Both the position numbers and the translations under genes were made by a program. DNA of 26,926 nucleotides from a virus: positions 1 to 26,926 of IMG/VR virus record IMGVR_UViG_3300032249_000291. The stretch is one strand, 5' to 3'. Positions 1,916 to 10,110 of this stretch are shown in pieces. How positions within the stretch are numbered: position 1 is the first letter of the stretch; the number at the start of each line of letters is the position of its first letter. The notes below the pieces were generated by a model that was not told the DNA's origin, ran no database searches, and saw only the letters and a list, made by a program, of their open reading frames with translations.

Positions 1916-1933
1916 GTTATAAATCTTTATAAC
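1916..1933. repeat. Palindromic site 1 of 8 (GTTATAA-ATCT-TTATAAC)
   Basis: Perfect 7-bp arms around a 4-nt centre. It overlaps the TAA stop of the VRR-NUC gene and lies just before the SD of the HTH/arm-domain gene (start 1902). The same 7-4-7 palindrome recurs seven more times in the leftward half. Confidence 0.9.
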
Positions 1934-2228
1934 TAAACACAATCGAATCCAACACCTCGCGCAACGGCTCGATGCCATCTTCATTCACTACGAATGCTTC
2001 ACCTCCTGCTTTCTCAATCTGCTCTAAGTTCTTTTCCTGCAATGCCGTGGGCCTGTTCGACCCTGCCTTGCACTCGATACCCACGAACCTACCCTGCAAA
2101 CACACCAGAAAATCTGGCGCACCCTGCTTACCAAACCCGCTCGTCACGGGCATAACGTAGTACGCGCCTAACCCATCAAGGATTTTGCGTACCTTGGCTT
2201 TTACAGCCGCTTCCGGAGTCATTGCCAT
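1917..2228 (-). CDS. VRR-NUC domain nuclease (103 aa)
   Basis: A small PD-(D/E)xK-fold nuclease of the VRR-NUC family, which includes stand-alone phage enzymes thought to cut branched or otherwise structured DNA. Visible motifs: an N-terminal helix with Glu6, then GAPDF (Asp39), the core strand, and ECKAG (Glu52-x-Lys54), with Gln64 in the following helix (TALQEKNL). The length equals the bare catalytic domain. SD GAGGTG lies 7 nt before the ATG. It overlaps the 3' end of the upstream 92-aa gene by 53 nt. The role is probably in phage recombination, replication or host DNA degradation. Identification is firm at family level. Confidence 0.88.
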   Translation of the reverse strand: MAMTPEAAVKAKVRKILDGLGAYYVMPVTSGFGKQGAPDFLVCLQGRFVGIECKAGSNRPTALQEKNLEQIEKAGGEAFVVNEDGIEPLREVLDSIVFSYKDL

Positions 2229-2454
2229 CGTCTATCACCTCAAAAAAATTATCTTTTAACCGCTTGCCAACCCCGGGGATTGACTCCCCGTCGTTGAGCA
2301 TAGAAAGCGCCGCGATCCGCTCTTGGACGTTTTGCGACAGCTCCTCAACCGGATGATACCGGTTGATAGTTATAAATGCAAGCGTCTCATCAAACGCGTG
2401 AACCCATACTAAGCCGTCGCAAAACAGAGCAATCAATAACTTATTTTCATACAT
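2176..2454 (-). CDS. Small protein paralogous to the C-terminal domain of its neighbour (92 aa)
   Basis: Function unknown. Residues about 35-75 (HPVEELSQNV, RIAALSM, then a Gly/Ile segment) match the C-terminal part of the upstream 319-aa protein (EPVEKLDPDF, KLAALSM, ...) at similar spacing, so this looks like a free-standing copy of that domain. The upstream strand-rich N-terminus (LLIALFCDGLVWVHAF) also fits loosely. The last ~17 residues (GNDSGSGCKSQGTQNP) overlap the nuclease gene and look unstructured. The ATG overlaps the upstream gene's end by 8 nt. The gene is probably real; the role is unknown. Confidence 0.7.
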   Translation of the reverse strand: MYENKLLIALFCDGLVWVHAFDETLAFITINRYHPVEELSQNVQERIAALSMLNDGESIPGVGKRLKDNFFEVIDDGNDSGSGCKSQGTQNP

Positions 2455-3406
2455 CCCGACACTCGATCCAGAATGACTGCTCGGTCACACGGTATCCAAT
2501 GTTCTCGATGTACTTACCCACCTCGACCATAGACAGGGCGGCGAGCTTGCCCGCGAAGTCGGGATCAAGCTTCTCAACAGGCTCGGACTTGAACGTCATG
2601 TCATCACGTCTAAAGTCGTACGCGTTAGCGTGCCCGATGTCGGCTATCTGTGCACCGTTCTTGAGGATGCGGATAGACACAAACACCGCGTCACCCTTGT
2701 ACCGCTTGAGCGCGTTGTACTCGTCGAGATATTCCTGCGCGTTGTTCGCAAACTCCTGCACCTCAGCGGAGAGGAACTGCACACCCTGTTTACTCAGGTT
2801 AATAATCTCCTGCGCGAGTGTCATACCGTCGAGACGGCCAATCTTATGTAGCTTGAACTCGGCGTTACTCAGCGGACGTTTAGAGTGACTGGCAAAGTTA
2901 CCCGCCGAACGACCGGCAATGACCGTGAGGCTCCACGGGCTAACAAACTTGTTAGCGTTCTTTACTGCGCGCCTAACATCTTCAGACCAGAGCTTGCGAT
3001 ATCCAGAGTTACTGTCGCCGAACCGCTTGTTAGCGATCTTGTGCGCCTCGATACCGAACCCGTTCTCGCTGTCATACATGACCCGCGCCATGATGTACTC
3101 GCTTGAGTCGGTGTACACGAACATATCTGTAAACACGTGACCTACCAGCCGGATGCGCCCGTTCTCGTCACGCTGCCCGTCATGTGCGTACAGAGTTTCA
3201 CGTGCGTTGTCGGCACTACCGAAAAACTTAACATGTGGTGAGGACAGGCGATAGGCCGTGCAGAACACGTAGATCCGTTCGGTGACGGGGTAACCGTCTA
3301 TCCAGTAGCCATGTTCGGTTTTGCATGGGAACTTCTCATTCATGTACCTGTGCGCTTTGTGGAGCGTGACAAGTTGCGGGAATCTTGGAAAATCACTGCG
3401 AGCCAT
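2447..3406 (-). CDS. Unknown protein in the AAA+/VWA operon (319 aa)
   Basis: Not recognised. The protein appears to have an alpha/beta N-terminal region (about residues 1-130, rich in Tyr and Phe), a central Arg/Lys/Asn-rich helical region (about 135-240, including a predicted helix EVQEFANNAQEYLDEY), and a C-terminal domain (about 245-319) shared with the 92-aa protein downstream. SD GAGGTG and palindrome 2 lie immediately upstream. It follows the 336-aa unknown and shares the operon with the MoxR-like ATPase and VWA protein, so it may be an effector or substrate of that system, but this is only context. Confidence 0.75.
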   Translation of the reverse strand: MARSDFPRFPQLVTLHKAHRYMNEKFPCKTEHGYWIDGYPVTERIYVFCTAYRLSSPHVKFFGSADNARETLYAHDGQRDENGRIRLVGHVFTDMFVYTDSSEYIMARVMYDSENGFGIEAHKIANKRFGDSNSGYRKLWSEDVRRAVKNANKFVSPWSLTVIAGRSAGNFASHSKRPLSNAEFKLHKIGRLDGMTLAQEIINLSKQGVQFLSAEVQEFANNAQEYLDEYNALKRYKGDAVFVSIRILKNGAQIADIGHANAYDFRRDDMTFKSEPVEKLDPDFAGKLAALSMVEVGKYIENIGYRVTEQSFWIECRDV

Positions 3407-3417
3407 TTTTCACCTCG

Positions 3418-3435
3418 GTTATAAAGCGTTATAAC
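3418..3435. repeat. Palindromic site 2 of 8 (GTTATAA-AGCG-TTATAAC)
   Basis: A 7-4-7 palindrome in the 33-base gap between the 336-aa gene (stop 3440) and the 319-aa gene (start 3406), directly upstream of the SD of the latter. Confidence 0.9.
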
Positions 3436-3439
3436 TAAA

Positions 3440-4450
3440 TTAGTACGTACGACGTGCGTACAAGTCTGCTGCCTTGTACATGGTTTTGAGATACAGAGCA
3501 CGTACGTGGCGAGCTTGCGCAACCGTTTCGGGTAGGACAAGGATCGTCTCGTACGTGATATCCAGAAGGATGTTGTCATCAGAAAAGTTGCTTGTGGCTA
3601 CGCGCCTGTAAAGGTGCAGAGCTTGGGCAAACATCACCGCGAGATCAACTCTATTTAAGTGTTGAGTGTCTAGTATAACAGATCTAACTTTCTGTGTCAA
3701 ATCATGTGAAAGGTTACTCAGATCTACGTAATGATGTGTAGGGTTAGGATATTTACCCCATAGACGTGGGACGAAGTTATTCACATGCCGATCAAACGCA
3801 CGAGGGTCCACGTCACCAAGCACGGGCAGCACCACGCACATGTAATCGTAGAACTCGTTGATCGCTTGCTTGTACTTGGCTACAAGATCTTTATCCAGCA
3901 CAGTGAGGCGCATCTCTACTGGTTTGCCCGCACGTCGCCACGCACCGCCCCGCGACGAGGAACTACTATCGGTGAGAAGCGGGCGCTCAAACCAGAGACA
4001 CGTCGGGTCAAAGTAATCGGCAGCGGCAAAGTACGCCTTGGGTCGGGGTAGGTAGAACTCTTTACCGTCAGTCTCGATAAACGTGTCACCGCCGCTCCGC
4101 TTGGTCAGCCGCATGTCGGCGGGTAGCAGGTTGATCAGGAACTTCTCACGCGCTATAGGATTAATACCTTCTGGTGCGTTACGGATACGGATAAGCTCGT
4201 GCGCCCCGTCGCGTTGCCATAGGATCGGTGCGTTACGGAACGACATTGTTTCGGGCGGGTACACGATAGCGGACGGGATCAGCCCATCCAAAAGAAGATA
4301 TCGGTTCTCATCAACCCGGGCGATCCGATCCATGTATCGGTTACGCGGACCCACGGGACGCACGTTCATACTGGCAGTGTTGCGCCCACCGTTGAGTGGT
4401 CTAGTGCGCGTGTATAGCGCGACGGCTTGGTCAAACGAATTAATAGTCAT
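3440..4450 (-). CDS. Unknown protein in the AAA+/VWA operon (336 aa)
   Basis: Not recognised. The start is set at the ATG at 4450 because a clear SD (GAGGTG, 4455-4460) lies 4 nt upstream; a longer reading would begin inside the terminator-like hairpin. The N-terminal half is strand-rich with many Arg and Pro residues; around residue 175-185 is a low-complexity serine run (TDSSSSSRGG); the C-terminal 150 residues are predominantly helical. No catalytic motif or membrane segment is visible. It directly follows the VWA gene but is separated from it by palindrome 3 and a hairpin with a T tract, so its expression may be attenuated. Partnership with the ATPase/VWA pair is inferred from position only. 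Confidence 0.75.
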   Translation of the reverse strand: MTINSFDQAVALYTRTRPLNGGRNTASMNVRPVGPRNRYMDRIARVDENRYLLLDGLIPSAIVYPPETMSFRNAPILWQRDGAHELIRIRNAPEGINPIAREKFLINLLPADMRLTKRSGGDTFIETDGKEFYLPRPKAYFAAADYFDPTCLWFERPLLTDSSSSSRGGAWRRAGKPVEMRLTVLDKDLVAKYKQAINEFYDYMCVVLPVLGDVDPRAFDRHVNNFVPRLWGKYPNPTHHYVDLSNLSHDLTQKVRSVILDTQHLNRVDLAVMFAQALHLYRRVATSNFSDDNILLDITYETILVLPETVAQARHVRALYLKTMYKAADLYARRTY

Positions 4451-4464
4451 CTCACACCTCAAAT

Positions 4465-4503
4465 AAAAAAGGGGCACGCAGGCCGCCGGATATCCGGCGT
4501 GCC
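4465..4503 (-). terminator. Rho-independent terminator or attenuator between VWA gene and 336-aa gene
   Basis: Read leftwards: stem GGCACGC (4503-4497) / GCGTGCC (4479-4473) with an inner 14-bp palindrome GCCGGATATCCGGC (4485-4498), then CC and six Ts (4470-4465). The SD of the next gene starts only 4 nt after the T tract, so there is no room for a new promoter between them. Confidence 0.7.
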
Positions 4504-4512
4504 TTAGCCTCG

Positions 4513-4530
4513 GTTATAAAGCCTTATAAC
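4513..4530. repeat. Palindromic site 3 of 8 (GTTATAA-AGCC-TTATAAC)
   Basis: A 7-4-7 palindrome abutting the TGA stop of the VWA gene (4531) and preceding the terminator-like hairpin. Confidence 0.9.
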
Positions 4531-5781
4531 TCAGATCTCCACGTGCACAGTGGTCCCGTTCGGCGCAGTGCGTGACGCGTTGTCGATGATGCACCAGAGA
4601 ACCGGCACGGTCCACGTACCCCAGTCGCTGCCGAGGTAGCCGTCAGTCAGCACGATAACGGCTTGTGGTGTGATGCCCTGCGCGGTCATATAGTTGGACA
4701 CGCACGACACCCGTGTGCCACCGCCACCGACCGGCTTGGTCGAGTGAATGATGTTCGGGATCTGGTCGTCGGCGTACACCTCGTCACCGCATACCTCAGT
4801 ATCCCAGTACAGGATACGTACAGCGGCGGGCTTGACCGACTCGCAGATGCCCGCGACCTCACCCATGATCTGCGGCAACATCGATATCGTCGAACCGGAC
4901 ATATCGGCGGCAATAACTAACTCGTCGACCTTCTCGCTGATGCCAGACGGCAGGTATATACCTGCACCCCAATACCTGCGGTTTGGTCGTGCCCACGTCG
5001 AGTAGTCACTGCCCGTGCATGTTGTGGTAATAAACTCACGCAACACCTCGCGCCAGTCGATCTTGCTATCTAACACGTCGTCGAGCATACGGTTACCGCC
5101 CGTGCCGGTCTTACCTGCAAGTAGCGCACCTTGTTGCGCGGCTTCCTGCACAGCACGCTCTAAGTTCTTTTTCTGCTCGTCGGTCAGCTTACCCGCACCT
5201 GCCCAATCGTGTTTGTCCAACGGCTTGCCCGGACCCTGCCCGGGTTGTGGTTGACCTTGACCCTGACCCCCGGGTTGCGGATTACCCTGACCTTGCCCCT
5301 GACCCTGCTTCTGCTTGTAAAGAGCTTTGAATACCTGCGGCACGGTCTTGTTGCGGTACTGCTCGTCGTACAGACCACCCTTTGGCATGGTGATGAACCC
5401 GGGCTGAGTTCGCTTGTCATGGTCGAGTAGCCGCATGTTGATAACGTAATCACACGCGGCGTTGGCACACTCGGCGTCGAGCTTCCACAGATCGGCGTAA
5501 GTAGTCAGGTGCAGATACAGGATGTGCCACGTCTCATGGCAGATGAGGAACCGCAGGTCGGAATCACTGATGCTGTCGATAAACTTGTCACTGTACCTAG
5601 CCGTGACGCCGTTAGTCTCGGCTGTATCGATGCCGTCGGTCCCGTTCGGCACGACAGTGTGTTTAGCCATGAGCACCAGACCGGTGATCGGCGTGTAGTG
5701 CGGAGACCCAATGATTGCACCGACAGCTTTTGTAAGACGCTGAGCGGCGGTGAGTTCGGCTTGTCTTGCGATCATCAACAT
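4531..5781 (-). CDS. VWA-domain protein with HExxH metallopeptidase-like N-terminus, CobT/DUF2201-like (416 aa)
   Basis: The N-terminal domain (about 1-150) carries HETWH at residues 82-86, the zinc-metallopeptidase signature seen in the DUF2201 'putative metallopeptidase' family. A Gln/Gly/Pro-rich linker (about 157-185) follows, then a C-terminal von Willebrand A domain with MIDAS motif DMSGS (293-297), a GGGGTR loop and VLTDGY. This matches the substrate-handling partner of MoxR-type AAA+ ATPases (CobT-CobS, ViaA-RavA types). The gene lies immediately downstream of such an ATPase. The start is the ATG at 5781, 5 nt after SD GAGGTG; a TTG four codons earlier lies inside the SD. Cytoplasmic; a role in ATP-driven remodelling of another complex is inferred from the families. 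Confidence 0.88.
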   Translation of the reverse strand: MLMIARQAELTAAQRLTKAVGAIIGSPHYTPITGLVLMAKHTVVPNGTDGIDTAETNGVTARYSDKFIDSISDSDLRFLICHETWHILYLHLTTYADLWKLDAECANAACDYVINMRLLDHDKRTQPGFITMPKGGLYDEQYRNKTVPQVFKALYKQKQGQGQGQGNPQPGGQGQGQPQPGQGPGKPLDKHDWAGAGKLTDEQKKNLERAVQEAAQQGALLAGKTGTGGNRMLDDVLDSKIDWREVLREFITTTCTGSDYSTWARPNRRYWGAGIYLPSGISEKVDELVIAADMSGSTISMLPQIMGEVAGICESVKPAAVRILYWDTEVCGDEVYADDQIPNIIHSTKPVGGGGTRVSCVSNYMTAQGITPQAVIVLTDGYLGSDWGTWTVPVLWCIIDNASRTAPNGTTVHVEI

Positions 5782-5801
5782 AGAACACCTCAAAAGATAG
5801 A

Positions 5802-5827
5802 GCCGGTTATAAAGCGTTATAACCGGC
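5802..5827. repeat. Palindromic site 4 of 8 with extended arms (core 5806-5823)
   Basis: The core GTTATAA-AGCG-TTATAAC is extended to 11-bp arms (GCCGGTTATAA / TTATAACCGGC). It lies between the ATPase stop (5838) and the VWA start (5781), upstream of the SD. Confidence 0.9.
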
Positions 5828-5837
5828 GGATAAAAAA

Positions 5838-6944
5838 TTACTTGTCTGCGCCGAATGCGAAGTTATTGGCAAGACACCACGCACGGGCTTTAGCGTTGTT
5901 CAACACCACCGTGCGCTTGCTGTAGTCCTCGCGCTTGACCTGCATCATAAATAGAAGCTGAGCTTCCATGTCGAGCCGACCCATGTAGTCCATCCACTGA
6001 TCGACCCACTCGCGTGAGATCGTAGCCAGTGTGCGATGCACGACCATGCACGTAGCCGCGTCGGTAGACGGAATCTTGGCAGTGAACGGGTCGACCTTGA
6101 TTGAATCGGGCGTGGGCATATCCTGCGCGGTGTCATAGAAGGTAACAAGTTCACCAGCAGCTTTCGGTCCGATACACCCGATGAGTGCAGCCATCAGCAT
6201 GCGGCGGGGCTTGCCCGTGTACAGCCAGCGCGACGCAGCTTCAAGTGAGCGCGGAGTAACAAACGATACGCGCGAGCGGTCGCCCGGGTGCATGATGTAC
6301 TGATTGTCGGCAGGGTTCTGCACGTCCTCAAAGGACTGGAACCATTCCGGTTTGTCGTTGACGCACGCAATCATGGCAGGGTGAATACCCGCGTTGTACG
6401 CGTACTCGGCGATCCACTCCGTGTTAGTAGGTTTACGCATGCGCATGACCGTGATGCGGTTGCGATGGTGCGGCATCAGCAGGTCGCCAACACCCTCAGC
6501 CCCGAGGTTAGTCGTCGCAAACAACATCGAGTCGAGCGTCATCTCGTAACGCACACCGAGCTTGCGCTCCAGCATGAGCCGCATCATCCCGTTCTTGACA
6601 GCGGCATTCGCTTTGCCAAACTCATCGATCATCAGAATCAACGGCTTGGACAGGTGCAGCCCCAATTCTTCGTTAGGCACGTGACGCACGCACGTAGTCC
6701 CGTCGTCGTTGAACTCCACGGTATGAAGTTTAGGTATGGTGATATCGCCCACGTCCTTAGTCGTGCAGTCGAAGTAGCACGCGGTATGCGTCGGGTAACG
6801 CTTGGCAAGCAGTTTGAGAATTGAACTCTTGCCGATACCCATGTGACCTTGCACCAGCACGGTGTTGTCACGGCAGGACTCGATCATCTCGGCCATCTCG
6901 GTGATGGACAGGTCGTAGAGAGAGTTAGTAGCGGAAGCAGACAT
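5838..6944 (-). CDS. MoxR/CobS-type AAA+ ATPase (368 aa)
   Basis: Walker A GHMGIGKSS (33-41), Walker B LILMIDEFG (102-110), sensor-1-like LFATTN, and an arginine-finger region MPHHRNRITVMRM place this in the MoxR/CobS branch of AAA+ ATPases. Such ATPases form hexameric rings that remodel or load cofactors into partner complexes together with a VWA protein, which here is the next gene. The C-terminal third is helical (lid). The start at 6944 follows SD GAGGTG with the same leader as the VWA gene (TTTTGAGGTGTTC). Upstream is a perfect 9-bp hairpin at the place where other genes have the palindrome. Family assignment is firm; the phage role is unknown. Confidence 0.92.
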   Translation of the reverse strand: MSASATNSLYDLSITEMAEMIESCRDNTVLVQGHMGIGKSSILKLLAKRYPTHTACYFDCTTKDVGDITIPKLHTVEFNDDGTTCVRHVPNEELGLHLSKPLILMIDEFGKANAAVKNGMMRLMLERKLGVRYEMTLDSMLFATTNLGAEGVGDLLMPHHRNRITVMRMRKPTNTEWIAEYAYNAGIHPAMIACVNDKPEWFQSFEDVQNPADNQYIMHPGDRSRVSFVTPRSLEAASRWLYTGKPRRMLMAALIGCIGPKAAGELVTFYDTAQDMPTPDSIKVDPFTAKIPSTDAATCMVVHRTLATISREWVDQWMDYMGRLDMEAQLLFMMQVKREDYSKRTVVLNNAKARAWCLANNFAFGADK

Positions 6945-6995
6945 GGAACACCTCAAAAGATAAAAAGAAACAAGGAAACAAATACAAAGAACAAG

Positions 6996-7018
6996 GGTGA
7001 TAAGTTTTACTTATCACC
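6996..7018. repeat. Perfect hairpin GGTGATAAG / CTTATCACC
   Basis: 9-bp arms with a 5-nt loop between the DUF3150-like gene (stop 7038) and the ATPase (start 6944). No U tract follows, so it is not a standard terminator. It occupies the intergenic position that elsewhere in the operon carries the GTTATAA palindrome. Confidence 0.7.
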
Positions 7019-7037
7019 GTGAAACAAAAGACAAAGA

Positions 7038-7949
7038 TTACCAAGACAGGTTAGACAGTATCGCGTCGACCTTAGCCTTAGTGTCACGGCGCAGGTGGTC
7101 ATCCTCACGCAGTGCATCGGGGGACACGCCGTCAAGCGCAGCTTCCAGACCATCACGCATGGCCGTCATACGGTGGTCGTTCTCGACATTGAACGCATCG
7201 AGCAGAGTCAGGAGATCACGCAGGTTGTAGACGAGAGAGTCACGGAATACTTTCTTATCCTTAGCGTCACCACCCACGTAGTCGAGCCGCTCGCTCATCT
7301 TGGACATGGCGTCGTACGTGCGCTGCCAGACCTCACGCATGGTTGCATCGAGACGTGAGTTGTACGTGTTTGCGAAGCTCTCGGCAAGAATCCTATTGTG
7401 CTCGTTGACCATATCAAGTTGCCAGTGCCCTGCAACGGGCATCGGCTGCTGCGCGTGGGCGAATGAGAACTTACTGCGCAAGGTATCGACCGACGGATAG
7501 TCGGAGTCACGATATAGCGTGCCGAGCTTGGCACGGGCTTCAGTCTGCGCCCACGAGTATGCAGACAGGAATGCTTCTTTGAGTGTGTCGAACTCGATAT
7601 GGTGACCGGTGATGCCCTCGTAATACATGGGGAAGCGGGACGTCGGCAGCGTGCGCTGACCGAGATCACCCCAAAGGCTTGTCTGCTCGTAGTGCCAGTT
7701 ACGCACGTTGGCAGCGTGCTTCTGAATTGCGATGAGTTCGGCACAGTCACCGAGCAGCTTCTTATGGAATGCACCGGCGTTGGCATCGGCGTTATTTGCA
7801 ACGGTCACCTCACGGGTGGCTTGCTTGTCGAGCTTGCGCCCGGTCCACACCGAGATGTTGAGTTCGGCAATCACGAGGGACTGGTGAAATACGTTGTTCG
7901 ATGCTTGCTGCGCAGGGGTGAGTGATGCAGCGATAGGGGCAAGAGTCAT
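7038..7949 (-). CDS. DUF3150-like protein, partner of the AAA+/VWA pair (303 aa)
   Basis: The N-terminal segment LNISVWTGRKLDKQAT, followed by a helical region (AGAFHKKLLGDCAELIAIQKHAANVRNWHYEQTS) and LWGDLGQRTLPTSRFPMY, resembles what I remember of the DUF3150 family, found beside CobS/CobT-like ATPase and VWA genes in phages and plasmids. The rest is mostly helical, with long coiled-coil-like stretches from about 190 on (DAMSKMSERLDY, LRDLLTLLDAFNVEND). No catalytic motif is seen, which suggests an adaptor or structural partner. SD (TGAGG) lies just before the ATG, and palindrome 5 is upstream. It is the first large gene of the operon, before the ATPase and VWA genes. The family call is from memory. 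Confidence 0.7.
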   Translation of the reverse strand: MTLAPIAASLTPAQQASNNVFHQSLVIAELNISVWTGRKLDKQATREVTVANNADANAGAFHKKLLGDCAELIAIQKHAANVRNWHYEQTSLWGDLGQRTLPTSRFPMYYEGITGHHIEFDTLKEAFLSAYSWAQTEARAKLGTLYRDSDYPSVDTLRSKFSFAHAQQPMPVAGHWQLDMVNEHNRILAESFANTYNSRLDATMREVWQRTYDAMSKMSERLDYVGGDAKDKKVFRDSLVYNLRDLLTLLDAFNVENDHRMTAMRDGLEAALDGVSPDALREDDHLRRDTKAKVDAILSNLSW

Positions 7950-7984
7950 GATGAACCTCAGATAAAGAAAGAAAAAAGAAACGA

Positions 7985-8002
7985 GTTATAAGGCTTTATA
8001 AC
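7985..8002. repeat. Palindromic site 5 of 8 (GTTATAA-GGCT-TTATAAC)
   Basis: A 7-4-7 palindrome that touches the stop codon of the 71-aa gene (8002) and lies upstream of the DUF3150-like gene (start 7949). Confidence 0.9.
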
Positions 8003-8217
8003 TAGTAGTAGCAGCGTTGGATGCGCAGGACAGTGAGCAGACGCTCGCGAAAAGAAGGCTTGAATTTCTTCAACAAGGACGACTGCAACCGCTCCATGTC
8101 CCAACTGATGACACGGCACGAGGACTGGCACGGTCGGGTATACCCGATGCTGATTAGGGATGGACCCCAATCTTTTTGGACAACGGTCGAGCCGTCGTCA
8201 CGCTTGATGAGTGGCAT
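8002..8217 (-). CDS. Hypothetical first protein of the AAA+ operon (71 aa)
   Basis: Not recognised. A small basic protein: an N-terminal stretch KRDDGSTVVQKDWGPSLISIG followed by a helical, Arg/Lys-rich C-terminus. It has the best Shine-Dalgarno of the leftward half (AGGAGGTG, then 6 nt, ATG at 8217), and palindrome 6 and a consensus sigma70 promoter lie upstream, so it is the first gene of the long operon. No motif for catalysis or membrane insertion is visible. The strong initiation signals are the main support. Confidence 0.7.
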   Translation of the reverse strand: MPLIKRDDGSTVVQKDWGPSLISIGYTRPCQSSCRVISWDMERLQSSLLKKFKPSFRERLLTVLRIQRCYY

Positions 8218-8263
8218 AAATGCACCTCCTGAAAGGAACCGGCAGGGCCGGAACCGGGACTCG

Positions 8264-8281
8264 GTTATAAGGCTTTATAAC
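8264..8281. repeat. Palindromic site 6 of 8 (GTTATAA-GGCT-TTATAAC)
   Basis: Lies in the predicted 5' leader of the long operon, between the promoter at 8322-8350 and the 71-aa gene start at 8217. Confidence 0.9.
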
Positions 8282-8321
8282 CGTCTGATAGAACAATCAA
8301 TAAACATCCACCAGAAGACAT

Positions 8322-8350
8322 AGTATGACAGGTTTAGGGGTGTTTGTCAA
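8322..8350 (-). promoter_or_regulatory. Sigma70-type promoter for the AAA+ operon
   Basis: Read leftwards: -35 TTGACA (8350-8345, perfect consensus), 17-nt spacer, -10 CATACT (8327-8322, 4 of 6). The predicted start near 8315 puts palindrome 6 in the leader and the 71-aa gene about 100 nt downstream. Confidence 0.6.
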
Positions 8351-8557
8351 GTATTTGGAAGCTTGTAGTGTTCTACTGTTCGGGGTAGGTGATGTTCGAT
8401 AGTTCGGGATTGATAGTGTTCTAGTGTTCATTGTGTACGCAAAAGTACCGTTCCATAGTGTTCTTTTCGACAAAGCACTTTTGATGTAGGAACGATGTAG
8501 GTGATTTAGGGGTCTGCAAGGGTAGTGTACGCACCGTGCAATCTGGAGTGTGTCCAA

Positions 8558-8683
8558 TGTAGCCAATGTTCGGAGGCTAAAATCGCTGTAGGAACCAAAA
8601 AATCATAGAAACTTTTGCTTTTGGTGTGTTGAAAAGTGATTTTTCTGGCTATCCACCCTTTTTTTGACCGAACATTGGCTACA
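8558..8683. repeat. Exact 16-bp inverted repeat pair
   Basis: TGTAGCCAATGTTCGG at 8558-8573 is the exact reverse complement of the sequence at 8668-8683. The arms are 94 bases apart and include the AATGTTCGG iteron-like core. Confidence 0.85.
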
Positions 8684-8853
8684 CATACTTCTAGATACTT
8701 TCTACTCTTATTTACTCTTATTTAACACTTCTATTTTGATACTTTCTGATACCCGCTGCAATGTGCTAACGCCCGCTGCAATCATTTGATATCGTACCTT
8801 TTGTTCTTGGCTTTTGGCTACATGACCGAACATTTAACACACCAAAAGCAAAA
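8613..8853. repeat. Exact 18-bp inverted repeat pair
   Basis: TTTTGCTTTTGGTGTGTT at 8613-8630 is the exact reverse complement of 8836-8853. It interleaves with the 16-bp pair: its left arm lies inside that pair's span, its right arm outside. Confidence 0.85.
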
Positions 8854-8930
8854 AATTCTGTGTTGAAAAAGAACACTCGATTTACCGTACGACCGAACAT
8901 TAGAACAACCGAACACTTGAACAGTTGGGA

Positions 8931-9040
8931 CGCCCCGCCGCTCATGGAAACTACTATCATTTGTCAGTTATAAAGCCTTATAACCGGCCCGAATCGCACC
9001 GCTGGTCGACCCGCCACGCCACTCACTGGAACTACTATCA
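8931..9040. repeat. Imperfect direct repeat (29 bp, two copies) around palindrome 7
   Basis: 8931-8959 and 9012-9040 match at 24 of 29 positions and both end in ACTACTATCA. They flank palindrome 7, giving a symmetric-looking control element between the terminator at 9065 and the repeat-rich region. Confidence 0.6.
8967..8984. repeat. Palindromic site 7 of 8 (GTTATAA-AGCC-TTATAAC)
   Basis: A 7-4-7 palindrome in the non-coding stretch, between the two copies of the 29-bp repeat. No gene starts close downstream of it. Confidence 0.9.
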
Positions 9041-9064
9041 ATTCCCGATCGGGAAACGCGGGCG

Positions 9065-9096
9065 AAAAAAAACCCCGCAGACCGAAATCTGCGGGG
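9065..9096 (-). terminator. Strong Rho-independent terminator
   Basis: Read leftwards: CCCCGCAGA (9096-9088), loop of 6, TCTGCGGGG (9081-9073), then eight Ts (9072-9065). It ends the short transcript carrying the 201-aa and 71-aa genes. Confidence 0.92.
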
Positions 9097-9114
9097 CTGA
9101 GCGGAGCGGGTTGC

Positions 9115-9330
9115 TTATAGCTGGACGTCGAACTCTCGGTCGTCCCATGCGCAATTCATTGGGTTAGCGTAAAAACGGATTTCACTGTACCCATCCTTGC
9201 GAAGTCGATCTTCATCGCGGATTGAAAAATAGGGGCCGTCGATCAATTTAAAATCGCGCCCATTAACATAGTCCGCTAACTTAGCCTTGCGTCCGTATGC
9301 ACCCATCGCGTTAATTACTTTCGATTGCAT
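9115..9330 (-). CDS. Hypothetical protein (71 aa)
   Basis: Not recognised. A small mixed alpha/beta protein with a basic N-terminus (SKVINAMGAYGRKAKLADY) and an aromatic, acidic C-terminus (RFYANPMNCAWDDREFDVQL). I chose the ATG at 9330. A TTG at 9399 would extend into the upstream gene and through a GC-rich hairpin. There is no clear SD: only 8 nt separate the ATG from a very stable hairpin (9339-9360), so translation may be coupled to the upstream gene or regulated. It is followed by a strong terminator. Confidence 0.65.
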   Translation of the reverse strand: MQSKVINAMGAYGRKAKLADYVNGRDFKLIDGPYFSIRDEDRLRKDGYSEIRFYANPMNCAWDDREFDVQL

Positions 9331-9338
9331 GTTGCATC

Positions 9339-9360
9339 CGGCCCCGGTTTCCCGGGGCCG
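9339..9360 (-). promoter_or_regulatory. Very stable GNRA-capped hairpin just upstream of a start codon
   Basis: Read leftwards: CGGCCCCGG-GAAA-CCGGGGCCG, nine G:C pairs with a GAAA loop, ending 8 nt before the ATG at 9330. There is no T tract, so it is unlikely to be a terminator. It may control translation or protect the mRNA. Confidence 0.6.
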
Positions 9361-9379
9361 TCCTATAGGTTGTTGTCGA

Positions 9380-9985
9380 TTAAACAGGGAGACGACCAAG
9401 TATTGCTTTTAGGTCGTTCGTCATGACAACCAAGTCGACTGGCTTACCGGCGGCGTCATGCAAACCCTCAAGCTTGCCAGCGTATTTGACCGCACTCTCA
9501 ATGGCCTTGCGAAGCTTGTCGACTGGTGACTTGGCTTCGGTTTCGGTTTCATCCTCACCGTTGGCTTCAGCTTCCAGTTCTGCTAAGTACTTTTCGATCA
9601 ACGCAAACTTCGCGCCGAACCCTTGCCGGATGACCTTGTTGCGATCTTTAGCGGCGTCGTCCAGTGTCTTAGGGTCGGCCAACAAGTTGGCGCGTTCCTT
9701 TGCGACCGGCCAACTAGCAATCATCCCATCGCGCAAGGTTTGCCGGTTCTGTTTTCCGACAAGGGTTTTCCCGTCCAGCGACGCGACGCGCCATTCGGCG
9801 TCGTACAGAACCTCAGACAAGGAAACCCATTTACCCTTAGCACCCTCAACAGCCTTGTCAGCGTCGTTGCTTTTCTTCAGCGCATCTGCGCAGATTGCGT
9901 TGAACCCGGACGGCAATGCCAACGCGCCAACAGCCGTGTGATTGGTCGCGATCTGGGTTTGCACCATTGCTTCGATAGCATTCAT
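9380..9985 (-). CDS. Unknown protein, first gene of a short leftward transcript (201 aa)
   Basis: Not recognised. Helix-rich and charged, with an acidic low-complexity stretch in the middle (EAEANGEDETETEAKS) separating an N-terminal domain of about 145 residues from a C-terminal helical segment of about 50. The start is ATG at 9985, set by SD GAGGTG 6 nt upstream. A longer frame upstream would cover the promoter and lacks an SD. It is transcribed from the TTGACA/TATTAT promoter at 10,042-10,069, with palindrome 8 upstream of that. The position, next to the divergent control region with a strong promoter, suggests an early protein; that is inference. Confidence 0.75.
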   Translation of the reverse strand: MNAIEAMVQTQIATNHTAVGALALPSGFNAICADALKKSNDADKAVEGAKGKWVSLSEVLYDAEWRVASLDGKTLVGKQNRQTLRDGMIASWPVAKERANLLADPKTLDDAAKDRNKVIRQGFGAKFALIEKYLAELEAEANGEDETETEAKSPVDKLRKAIESAVKYAGKLEGLHDAAGKPVDLVVMTNDLKAILGRLPV

Positions 9986-10041
9986 CTCATTCACCTCACG
10001 TCGGGCCGGTATCGACTGACACCTACAAACCCGACACCTCA

Positions 10042-10069
10042 ATAATACCTGAATGGTAAATCGTGTCAA
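10042..10069 (-). promoter_or_regulatory. Strong sigma70-type promoter for the 201-aa gene
   Basis: Read leftwards: -35 TTGACA (10069-10064), 16-nt spacer, -10 TATTAT (10047-10042, 5 of 6). The predicted start is near 10,035, giving a leader of about 50 nt before the ATG at 9985. Palindrome 8 lies about 24 bases upstream of the -35. Confidence 0.75.
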
Positions 10070-10092
10070 GTAATGTGAAAACAAAGCAACGG

Positions 10093-10110
10093 GTTATAAA
10101 GGTTTATAAC
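10093..10110. repeat. Palindromic site 8 of 8 (GTTATAA-AGGT-TTATAAC)
   Basis: A 7-4-7 palindrome, the rightmost copy, placed upstream of the TTGACA promoter, where an activator or a DNA-bending protein could act. Confidence 0.9.

Follow-up and report, generated by a model that had tools for sequence, protein, structure and literature searches.

The nearest published pattern to the one described here is that of the Cluster O mycobacteriophage Corndog, in which 17 bp dyads (TGTTCGG-N3-CCGAACA) are present in 34 copies, about a third of them inside genes; in their treatment of these dyads the authors predict a dimeric DNA-binding protein, note three candidates of which none is settled upon, and think a transcriptional role unlikely (PMC4351075). 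Phage palindromes of this dispersed kind, to which no function is assigned, have been reported from 2015 at the latest (PMC4351075), with no settled partner so far. The nearest mechanism is that of the Cluster A stoperators (L5), which in the accounts given of them are asymmetric sites of 13 bp whose orientation follows transcription and which are recognised by a monomeric repressor that has two DNA-binding domains (PMC6550527, PMC9283540). Here we describe eight copies of an 18 bp palindrome, GTTATAA-N4-TTATAAC, in a 26,926-base virus record (IMGVR_UViG_3300032249_000291, taken over its whole length and referred to as the window), together with a protein family, F, whose gene stands first in the leftward operon and which, as judged from comparison of related phages, very probably binds these palindromes. 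Genes in the window are those of a simple in-house caller and not of an annotation.

The likeness to the Corndog dyads, as that paper describes them, extends to invariant 7 bp arms, a variable short centre, fixed spacing, many copies, intergenic copies mostly in the leftward operon, and no integrase. The patterns differ in that copies are fewer here (2 to 13 perfect ones per record in 24 oriented records, with one record, G005, lacking a perfect site under the string used), and in that a binder is here proposed from co-variation of a helix and the operator across lineages. As in Cluster A, sites are repeated in short intergenic spaces, with 142 of the 164 perfect copies in the 24 records lying between genes though 79% of the span is coding; there, too, according to the sections on immunity, repressor and site motif diverge jointly and shape immunity specificity (PMC6550527, PMC9283540). 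The sites described here, however, are palindromes and not 13 bp asymmetric oriented sites, and since this defining feature is lacking we do not class the system as a stoperator system, although it may work like one. Further differences from Cluster A are that F has no convincing match among the families listed for 47 members and that a tyrosine integrase (PF00589) was found in none of 13 records searched (control positive in 14/14).

Phage repeats between genes or beside translation starts are also seen in the Cluster K SAS/ESAS elements, of which SAS is 13 bp, asymmetric and start-linked (PMC3203893), and in the intergenic repeats of the T1-type phages TLS, Stevie and T1, which are asymmetric and oriented, with a length of about 22 bp in Stevie (PMC11447400, PMC4319613); no cognate protein is given in the descriptions of these repeats. 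The Planktothrix phage Pag-Yong1 (OL906435; loci L197 and L316) shares the VWA/ATPase gene block and has a repeated palindrome, GGTTCAG-N1-CTGAACC, which also stands directly ahead of its first leftward gene. It differs in that both halves of the 45 kb piece, the structural half included, carry numerous copies of this palindrome, and a search for F in the 45 kb and 20 kb pieces gave no match at E <=1. The AcrVA2-like annotation found in Pag-Yong1 does not extend to the 345-aa protein of the window. A full-text literature search found no description of this F-palindrome system, and none for Pag-Yong1 by name; within the reach of these searches, neither the proposed binder and its recognition segment nor the many versions of the operator have been described before.

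Direct inspection of the sequence recovers all eight copies, with perfect arms, where the original prediction had placed them, and perfect copies are confined to the leftward half of the window. The duplex sequence of the operator is GTTATAAAGCCTTATAAC, and the sites are as follows.

1916-1933, no strand: putative palindromic operator in the last codons and stop (SYKDL-stop) of a 103-aa nuclease-like gene, upstream of the 285-aa gene
3418-3435, no strand: putative palindromic operator in the gap preceding the 319-aa gene
4513-4530, no strand: putative palindromic operator immediately past the VWA gene stop, with a terminator-like hairpin (by eye) after it
5806-5823, no strand: putative palindromic operator in the gap that separates the AAA ATPase gene from the VWA gene, where the relative G001 has GTTATGA-N4-TCATAAC with the flanks kept
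7985-8002, no strand: putative palindromic operator that abuts the 71-aa gene's stop codon, ahead of the 303-aa gene
8264-8281, no strand: putative palindromic operator preceding the 71-aa gene, in its 5' leader; a -10 element lies about 52 bp upstream of the operator
8967-8984, no strand: putative palindromic operator in a region where no gene is convincing, with a terminator-like hairpin on one side and an origin-like repeat region on the other
10093-10110, no strand: putative palindromic operator upstream of the promoter of the first gene, at 57 bp from its -10

Placement in gaps of the operon holds for the copies at 3418, 4513, 5806 and 7985, which follow or touch stop codons, but not for that at 1916, which lies inside a gene end. 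The arms are invariant as had been claimed, whereas the centre does not vary freely: it stays near AGCT, from which each of the eight copies is one base away. The departure from AGCT is not absolute, as the exact sequence is present at one of eight sites of the relative G028. Avoidance of a restriction site was considered as the cause of the imperfect centre and was rejected, AAGCTT being present seven times in the window and one relative having a perfect centre. With up to 3 mismatches allowed, 10 matches are present versus 0.81 +/- 0.90 expected (maximum of 4 in 100 shuffles); the two that are not perfect lie in the rightward half and have 3 mismatches each. In the gap between the AAA and 303-aa genes (about 6957-7037) the canonical operator is replaced by a palindrome of other spacing, GTGATAAG-TAAAA-CTTATCAC.

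Relatives were gathered with the VWA-domain protein (4531-5793), which gave at least 28 loci, and with an alignment of VWA proteins, which gave at least 107. Among the 107 related viral loci listed, palindromes with identical six-base arms occur at least three times in 80 and at least twice in 94; in the null, one Markov copy per locus, the largest family has a single member in 104 loci and two in 3. A smaller, earlier scan, which kept N runs and homopolymers where the later scans excluded both, found palindrome families in 14 of 17 records. The arm sequence differs by lineage (GTTATGA, GTTAGTG, GTTAGTC, GTTAGGG, GTTATAC, TTTAGGG, TCGGGCA and others), and the operator of the window is itself found in G002 and G028. 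In G001, whose VWA protein is 88% identical, GTTATGA-N4-TCATAAC (duplex GTTATGAACATTCATAAC) is present at five of the same gaps, with both arms changed and the flanks conserved at several, and the sole copy with the old sequence is the one embedded in the nuclease gene end. Five loci in bacterial genome contigs also have VWA relatives, and F was matched in none of them; the locus L425, which is among the five, contains three copies of TTGTTTAAACAA.

The sites are common near the beginning of the operon and become sparser further on, as seen when sites with at most one mismatch are counted within 200 nt upstream of each gene. The first gene has one in 14 of 15 cases, the AAA gene in 21/24, the 303-aa gene in 17/23 and the VWA gene in 13/24, followed by the 336-aa (7/15) and 511-aa (5/17) genes, the 319-aa family (8/37) and the nuclease (2/19), with none ahead of DNA polymerase (0/17) or terminase (0/19). 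Terminator-like T runs beside the sites are few, being found upstream of 7 and downstream of 4 of the 164 perfect copies, which still exceeds the expected 0.3 and 0.6. The distribution bears on a reading in which F organises or segregates phage DNA in a parS-like or nucleoid-type manner, and the positions in gaps reflect tolerance of non-coding DNA. Dispersed palindromic sites of 16-19 bp resemble parS-type sites, and sites are seen by eye around the origin-like region; yet in records of 58-68 kb the perfect sites are confined to stretches of 1.5-14 kb, polymerase and terminase genes have no site ahead of them, and the promoter geometry described below is conserved, so that we regard DNA organisation as very unlikely.

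The candidate binder and its proposed specificity segment are located as follows.

9380-9985 including the stop (9383-9985 without it), minus strand: gene of the family F protein (201 aa, proposed binder), first in the leftward operon
9596-9640 (codons), minus strand: specificity segment NKVIRQGFGAKFALI, residues 116-130, within a predicted helix spanning residues 110-141

The listed 234-aa reading frame starts upstream of the likely start of F. The first gene changes where the operator changes: its product is 97% identical between the window and G002, which have the same operator, and 45% identical between the window and G001, which do not and where F has 235 aa in G001, and the AAA, VWA and 303-aa proteins are 86-93% identical in both comparisons. 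The 319-aa (56%) and 285-aa (67%) proteins also diverge between the window and G001, but are absent from the G002 contig and are thus without that control. An iterative profile finds F in 49 of 109 related sources; the remaining 60 may include contigs that lack the operon start. A palindrome family of at least three copies is carried by 48 of the 49 (46 after the duplicates G030 and L276 are dropped), and the last, L258, has seven copies of TGTAA-N2-TTACA, with tandem operator-like units of this kind in 18 bp steps at about 4310-4370 and 5200-5260. Among the matches listed when loci are fetched by F, an F reading frame is present in 100 of 108, and at least two palindromes in 86 of these 100; removal of nine contigs already used leaves 91 listed loci, 77 with palindromes and with one operator core per helix, L373 (three copies) being the exception. 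The converse scan, starting from one exact palindrome of the window, gives at least 120 viral stretches; among the 120 listed, two encode F (L016 and L050), the palindrome lies beside the gene in both, and among the 120 a second copy is present in L050 alone. These comparisons make F a well supported binding partner.

Another binder had been suggested, the 285-aa helix-turn-helix protein at 1045-1902, and it is not supported: it was found in 1 of 18 related records searched versus palindrome families in 14 of 17, and the relative that carries it (72% identical) has a different palindrome except at the copy beside that gene. A MerR-like 85-aa protein was also considered and rejected, since it is found in 20 of 29 records and its recognition region looks alike (by eye) whatever the operator.

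One 15-residue segment of F tends to track the operator across lineages, each of which would thereby have its own specificity. To see this, the 15-column windows of the F alignment were compared with operator identity by partial correlation, holding the rest of the protein constant. A single peak is seen at columns 95-109 among 46 proteins (partial r 0.47); over all windows the median is 0.09, the 99th percentile of the permutations is 0.18, and the peak was reached in 0 of 200 permutations. It persists among 27 F proteins less than 45% identical to one another (0.45 at column 98; 0/500 permutations), and random subsets place the peak in the same region in 10 of 12 draws of 16 proteins and in 12 of 12 draws of 18, 24 or 30. 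Individual pairs illustrate both directions. Some F proteins that are 36-40% identical elsewhere share 87-100% of the helix and also the operator, as with G006 and L239 (rest 36%, helix 100%, operator 7/7), and some that are 68-81% identical elsewhere differ in helix and operator both, as with L215 and L213 (rest 81%, helix 40%, operator 4/7). The operators of the L215 and L213 types are TTAGGCG and TGTAGTC, respectively. Among 65 unique helices, residue 14 of the segment is D with G at operator position +3 in 24 and K or R with C in 23; D occurs with C in 4, and the other 14 have other combinations.

AlphaFold models of F are all-helical (pLDDT 83 for the window protein and 91 for L211) and the specificity segment falls within a helix of 32 residues, in its first half or middle. 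A search of a viral structure library with the L211 model gives as best match A0A6J5RDQ4, an uncharacterised 200-aa protein of an uncultured tailed phage (E 0.02, probability 1.00, TM 0.41), which is possibly an F member. A profile of alignment A2 matched six PDB sequences at E 0.015-0.47, none convincing; searches of Pfam and PHROG with 47 F members gave no convincing family among the matches listed (25 families), NCBIfam gave no match to the window F, and tblastn of the L211 F against 50,697 phage records gave none at E <=1. The possibility that F is a new DNA-binding fold family at the core of a rapidly diversifying, immunity-like switch, with dozens of independent regulons and a readable helix-to-base code, is a tentative one to which we give slightly less than an even chance. 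Members are helical and of 167-296 aa, which bears on a further reading, that the palindromes serve a phage-specific RNA polymerase as promoters of the N4 hairpin type. The palindromes are indeed repeated, phage-specific and upstream of genes, but the co-varying protein is no polymerase, several sites abut ribosome sites, and PF00940 is found in 0 of 14 records (a weak negative, since the control search matched nowhere either); polymerase promoters are thus extremely unlikely.

Several findings weigh against the pairing of F with the palindromes, or against the control that we propose below. The operator half-sites of the 46 phages were aligned to a common core by hand. The groups with TTTAGGGA and TGTATACA break the rule, having the same operator and a helix often less alike than the rest of the protein (57% for the rest and 27% for the helix in G026-L255; 68% and 53% in G007-G014). 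Among control families, 8 of 19 also beat all of their 100 permutations, which we attribute to label permutation ignoring kinship; the excess above the 99th percentile is 0.29 for F, 0.12 for portal and 0.10 for AAA, but two small families with wider nulls reach raw maxima as high as that of F (portal 0.48, 949-aa 0.51). F is singled out by the windowed scan only: in the whole-protein, family-by-family correlation its partial value is 0.18, and the top value of 0.38 belongs to the 949-aa and 73-aa families. Nearest-neighbour prediction of the operator in new loci succeeds equally with the helix and with the rest of the protein (66/77 each), so that this set confirms the pairing of F and operator and not the helix specifically, and leave-one-out prediction gives 26/46 for the helix versus 23/46 for the rest. 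In the 17-record scan the usual palindrome is absent from three records (G013, G015 and G018), and a family of 13 appeared in the Markov control for G011. Later gaps are incompletely occupied, as in the 319-aa and nuclease families, and the canonical operator of the AAA/303-aa gap, kept by G001 and G002, is lost in the window. A PDB structure search with the window F and L211 models found no match at E <=0.001, and weak helix-turn-helix-type hits are limited to one or two of 47 F members (HTH_TbsP_C in one, E 0.00017; MarR in two, best 0.033; a PHROG HTH in one, 0.0038). With no tyrosine integrase found in the 13 records searched, a role in lysogeny is without support. As for G015, the oriented record contains a 26 bp repeat starting GACAAAAAGACA at 394, 1286, 2049 and 4767, and its first gene escapes the F profile.

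A more complex question is whether the palindromes act as DNA or as RNA. The original prediction offered both operators for a phage regulator and RNA hairpins, and held that relatives keeping palindromes of unrelated sequence would argue for RNA structure. Such relatives are what we find; yet the sequence is fixed within each genome and tracks the F segment, which is more readily explained by a co-evolving binding protein than by a hairpin alone, and the operator alternative is the one that gains. Hairpins bound by F or cut by a nuclease could nevertheless control translation, processing or antitermination. Sites do lie in leaders and ahead of ribosome sites, the F segment is basic in several members, and each of seven site sequences folded as RNA gives a single hairpin (-2.6 to -13.4 kcal/mol), though the two from the window are weak at -2.6 kcal/mol. 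In 8 of 24 records a site precedes the -10 of F's own promoter by 48-75 bp and would be outside that transcript, and the operators of G026, L233 and L255 are palindromic through the dyad, where RNA cannot pair. An Rfam scan of the window gave no match at gathering score.

The spacing of the arms is also informative. Among 221 arm pairs in the 24 records, 208 are canonical, seven have one extra base and three have ten (218 in all), with three other spacings seen once each; the three sites with exactly ten extra bases are in G001. Ten base pairs correspond to roughly one helical turn, a spacing compatible with two half-sites that lie on one side of the DNA duplex. Against this, one G001 site with ten extra bases forms a longer RNA stem and is the most stable of the seven folded. 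Changes in a single arm break the RNA pair in 51 of 57 cases and leave a G-U pair in 6, but 44 of the 57 are at the outermost base, which makes this a weak test of RNA pairing, and they are unevenly divided between the upstream (42) and downstream (15) arms where a symmetric dimer site predicts otherwise. On balance we consider with good confidence that F binds the palindromes as DNA, and action in RNA to be quite improbable.

Two promoters of the operon are relevant to what binding would do.

10042-10069, minus strand: sigma70-like promoter of the first gene, TTGACA-N16-TATTAT
8322-8350, minus strand: sigma70-like promoter upstream of the 8264 operator, TTGACA-N17-CATACT

Strong sigma70-like promoters number only 2-8 per record, and in 22 of the 24 records at least one operator is found 48-95 bp downstream of the -10 of such a promoter. 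Promoter-like sequences in the sense of the operon cluster with their -10 at 50-70 bp upstream of the dyad (14 and 15 per 10 bp bin versus 2.06 expected), some promoters being counted more than once in this pile-up. This is the layout expected of a protein that stops polymerase after its start and at later gaps. The same F-operator pair could instead activate operon transcription, as a middle-gene activator would, and the sites upstream of F's own promoter in eight records stand where an activator could act; most often the promoter-linked site is nonetheless the downstream one, and no other clear promoter peak is seen at a fixed distance from the sites, so that activation seems unlikely.

A plausible scenario is that F acts as a dimer, with the palindromes as its operators in double-stranded DNA; as product of the first gene of the same operon, it would be made from its own strong host-type promoter. 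F would bind the site upstream of its own promoter, the site just downstream of the promoter serving the 71-aa, 303-aa, AAA and VWA genes, and sites in a number of the later gaps, where the bound protein would halt RNA polymerase at successive roadblocks, in the manner of stoperators, and lower expression of the operon. The early or middle block might in this way be shut down later in infection or be kept silent in a second related phage, which would amount to an immunity role, and the recognition segment and sites would switch together to give each lineage its own specificity. By analogy, a dimeric regulator that stops polymerase, a palindromic counterpart of the stoperators, is the best reading of the layout. 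Negative roadblock control taken by itself is possible but is placed by us just under even, and the explanation by a dimer, its operators and roadblocks with lineage-specific switching we hold to be moderately probable.

The joint change of specificity in a regulator and its sites is called not understood in the discussion of Cluster A immunity (PMC6550527). The binder, the 15-residue segment and the set of operators together make the claim directly testable. If it is true, a single long helix of the first-made protein reads a palindrome at many gene borders of its own operon, and one phage family carries many private versions of the same switch; these would then provide a large natural data set on regulator and site specificity changing together, as well as a source of orthogonal repressors.

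Among the other features of the window, we note a non-coding stretch at about 8300-8960 with many repeats of the GTTCGGTC/CCGAACA type on both strands, which looks like a replication origin; relatives have a similar stretch at the same place (by eye). The elements TGATAGTAGTTCCAGTGAG and TGATAGTAGTTTCCATGAG lie on either side of the 8967 site (about 8940-9060), and in relatives with other palindromes an GATACCAGT element is found just downstream of some sites, sometimes as tandem units after a terminator; these elements are possibly small RNAs or a second binding site. A strong intrinsic-terminator-like hairpin with a T run is present at 9065-9096, past a 94-aa reading frame, and is conserved in G001 and G002. 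A near-mode search of the phage records of the collection gave no DNA-level match to the window, and the nearest named phages by terminase are HTVC023P, HTVC027P, DSL-LC04 and Pag-Yong1, at 42-47% identity. Lastly, the 267-aa protein encoded at 24435-25238 matches E1_FCCH (Pfam PF16190) above the cut-off, an odd label for the region.

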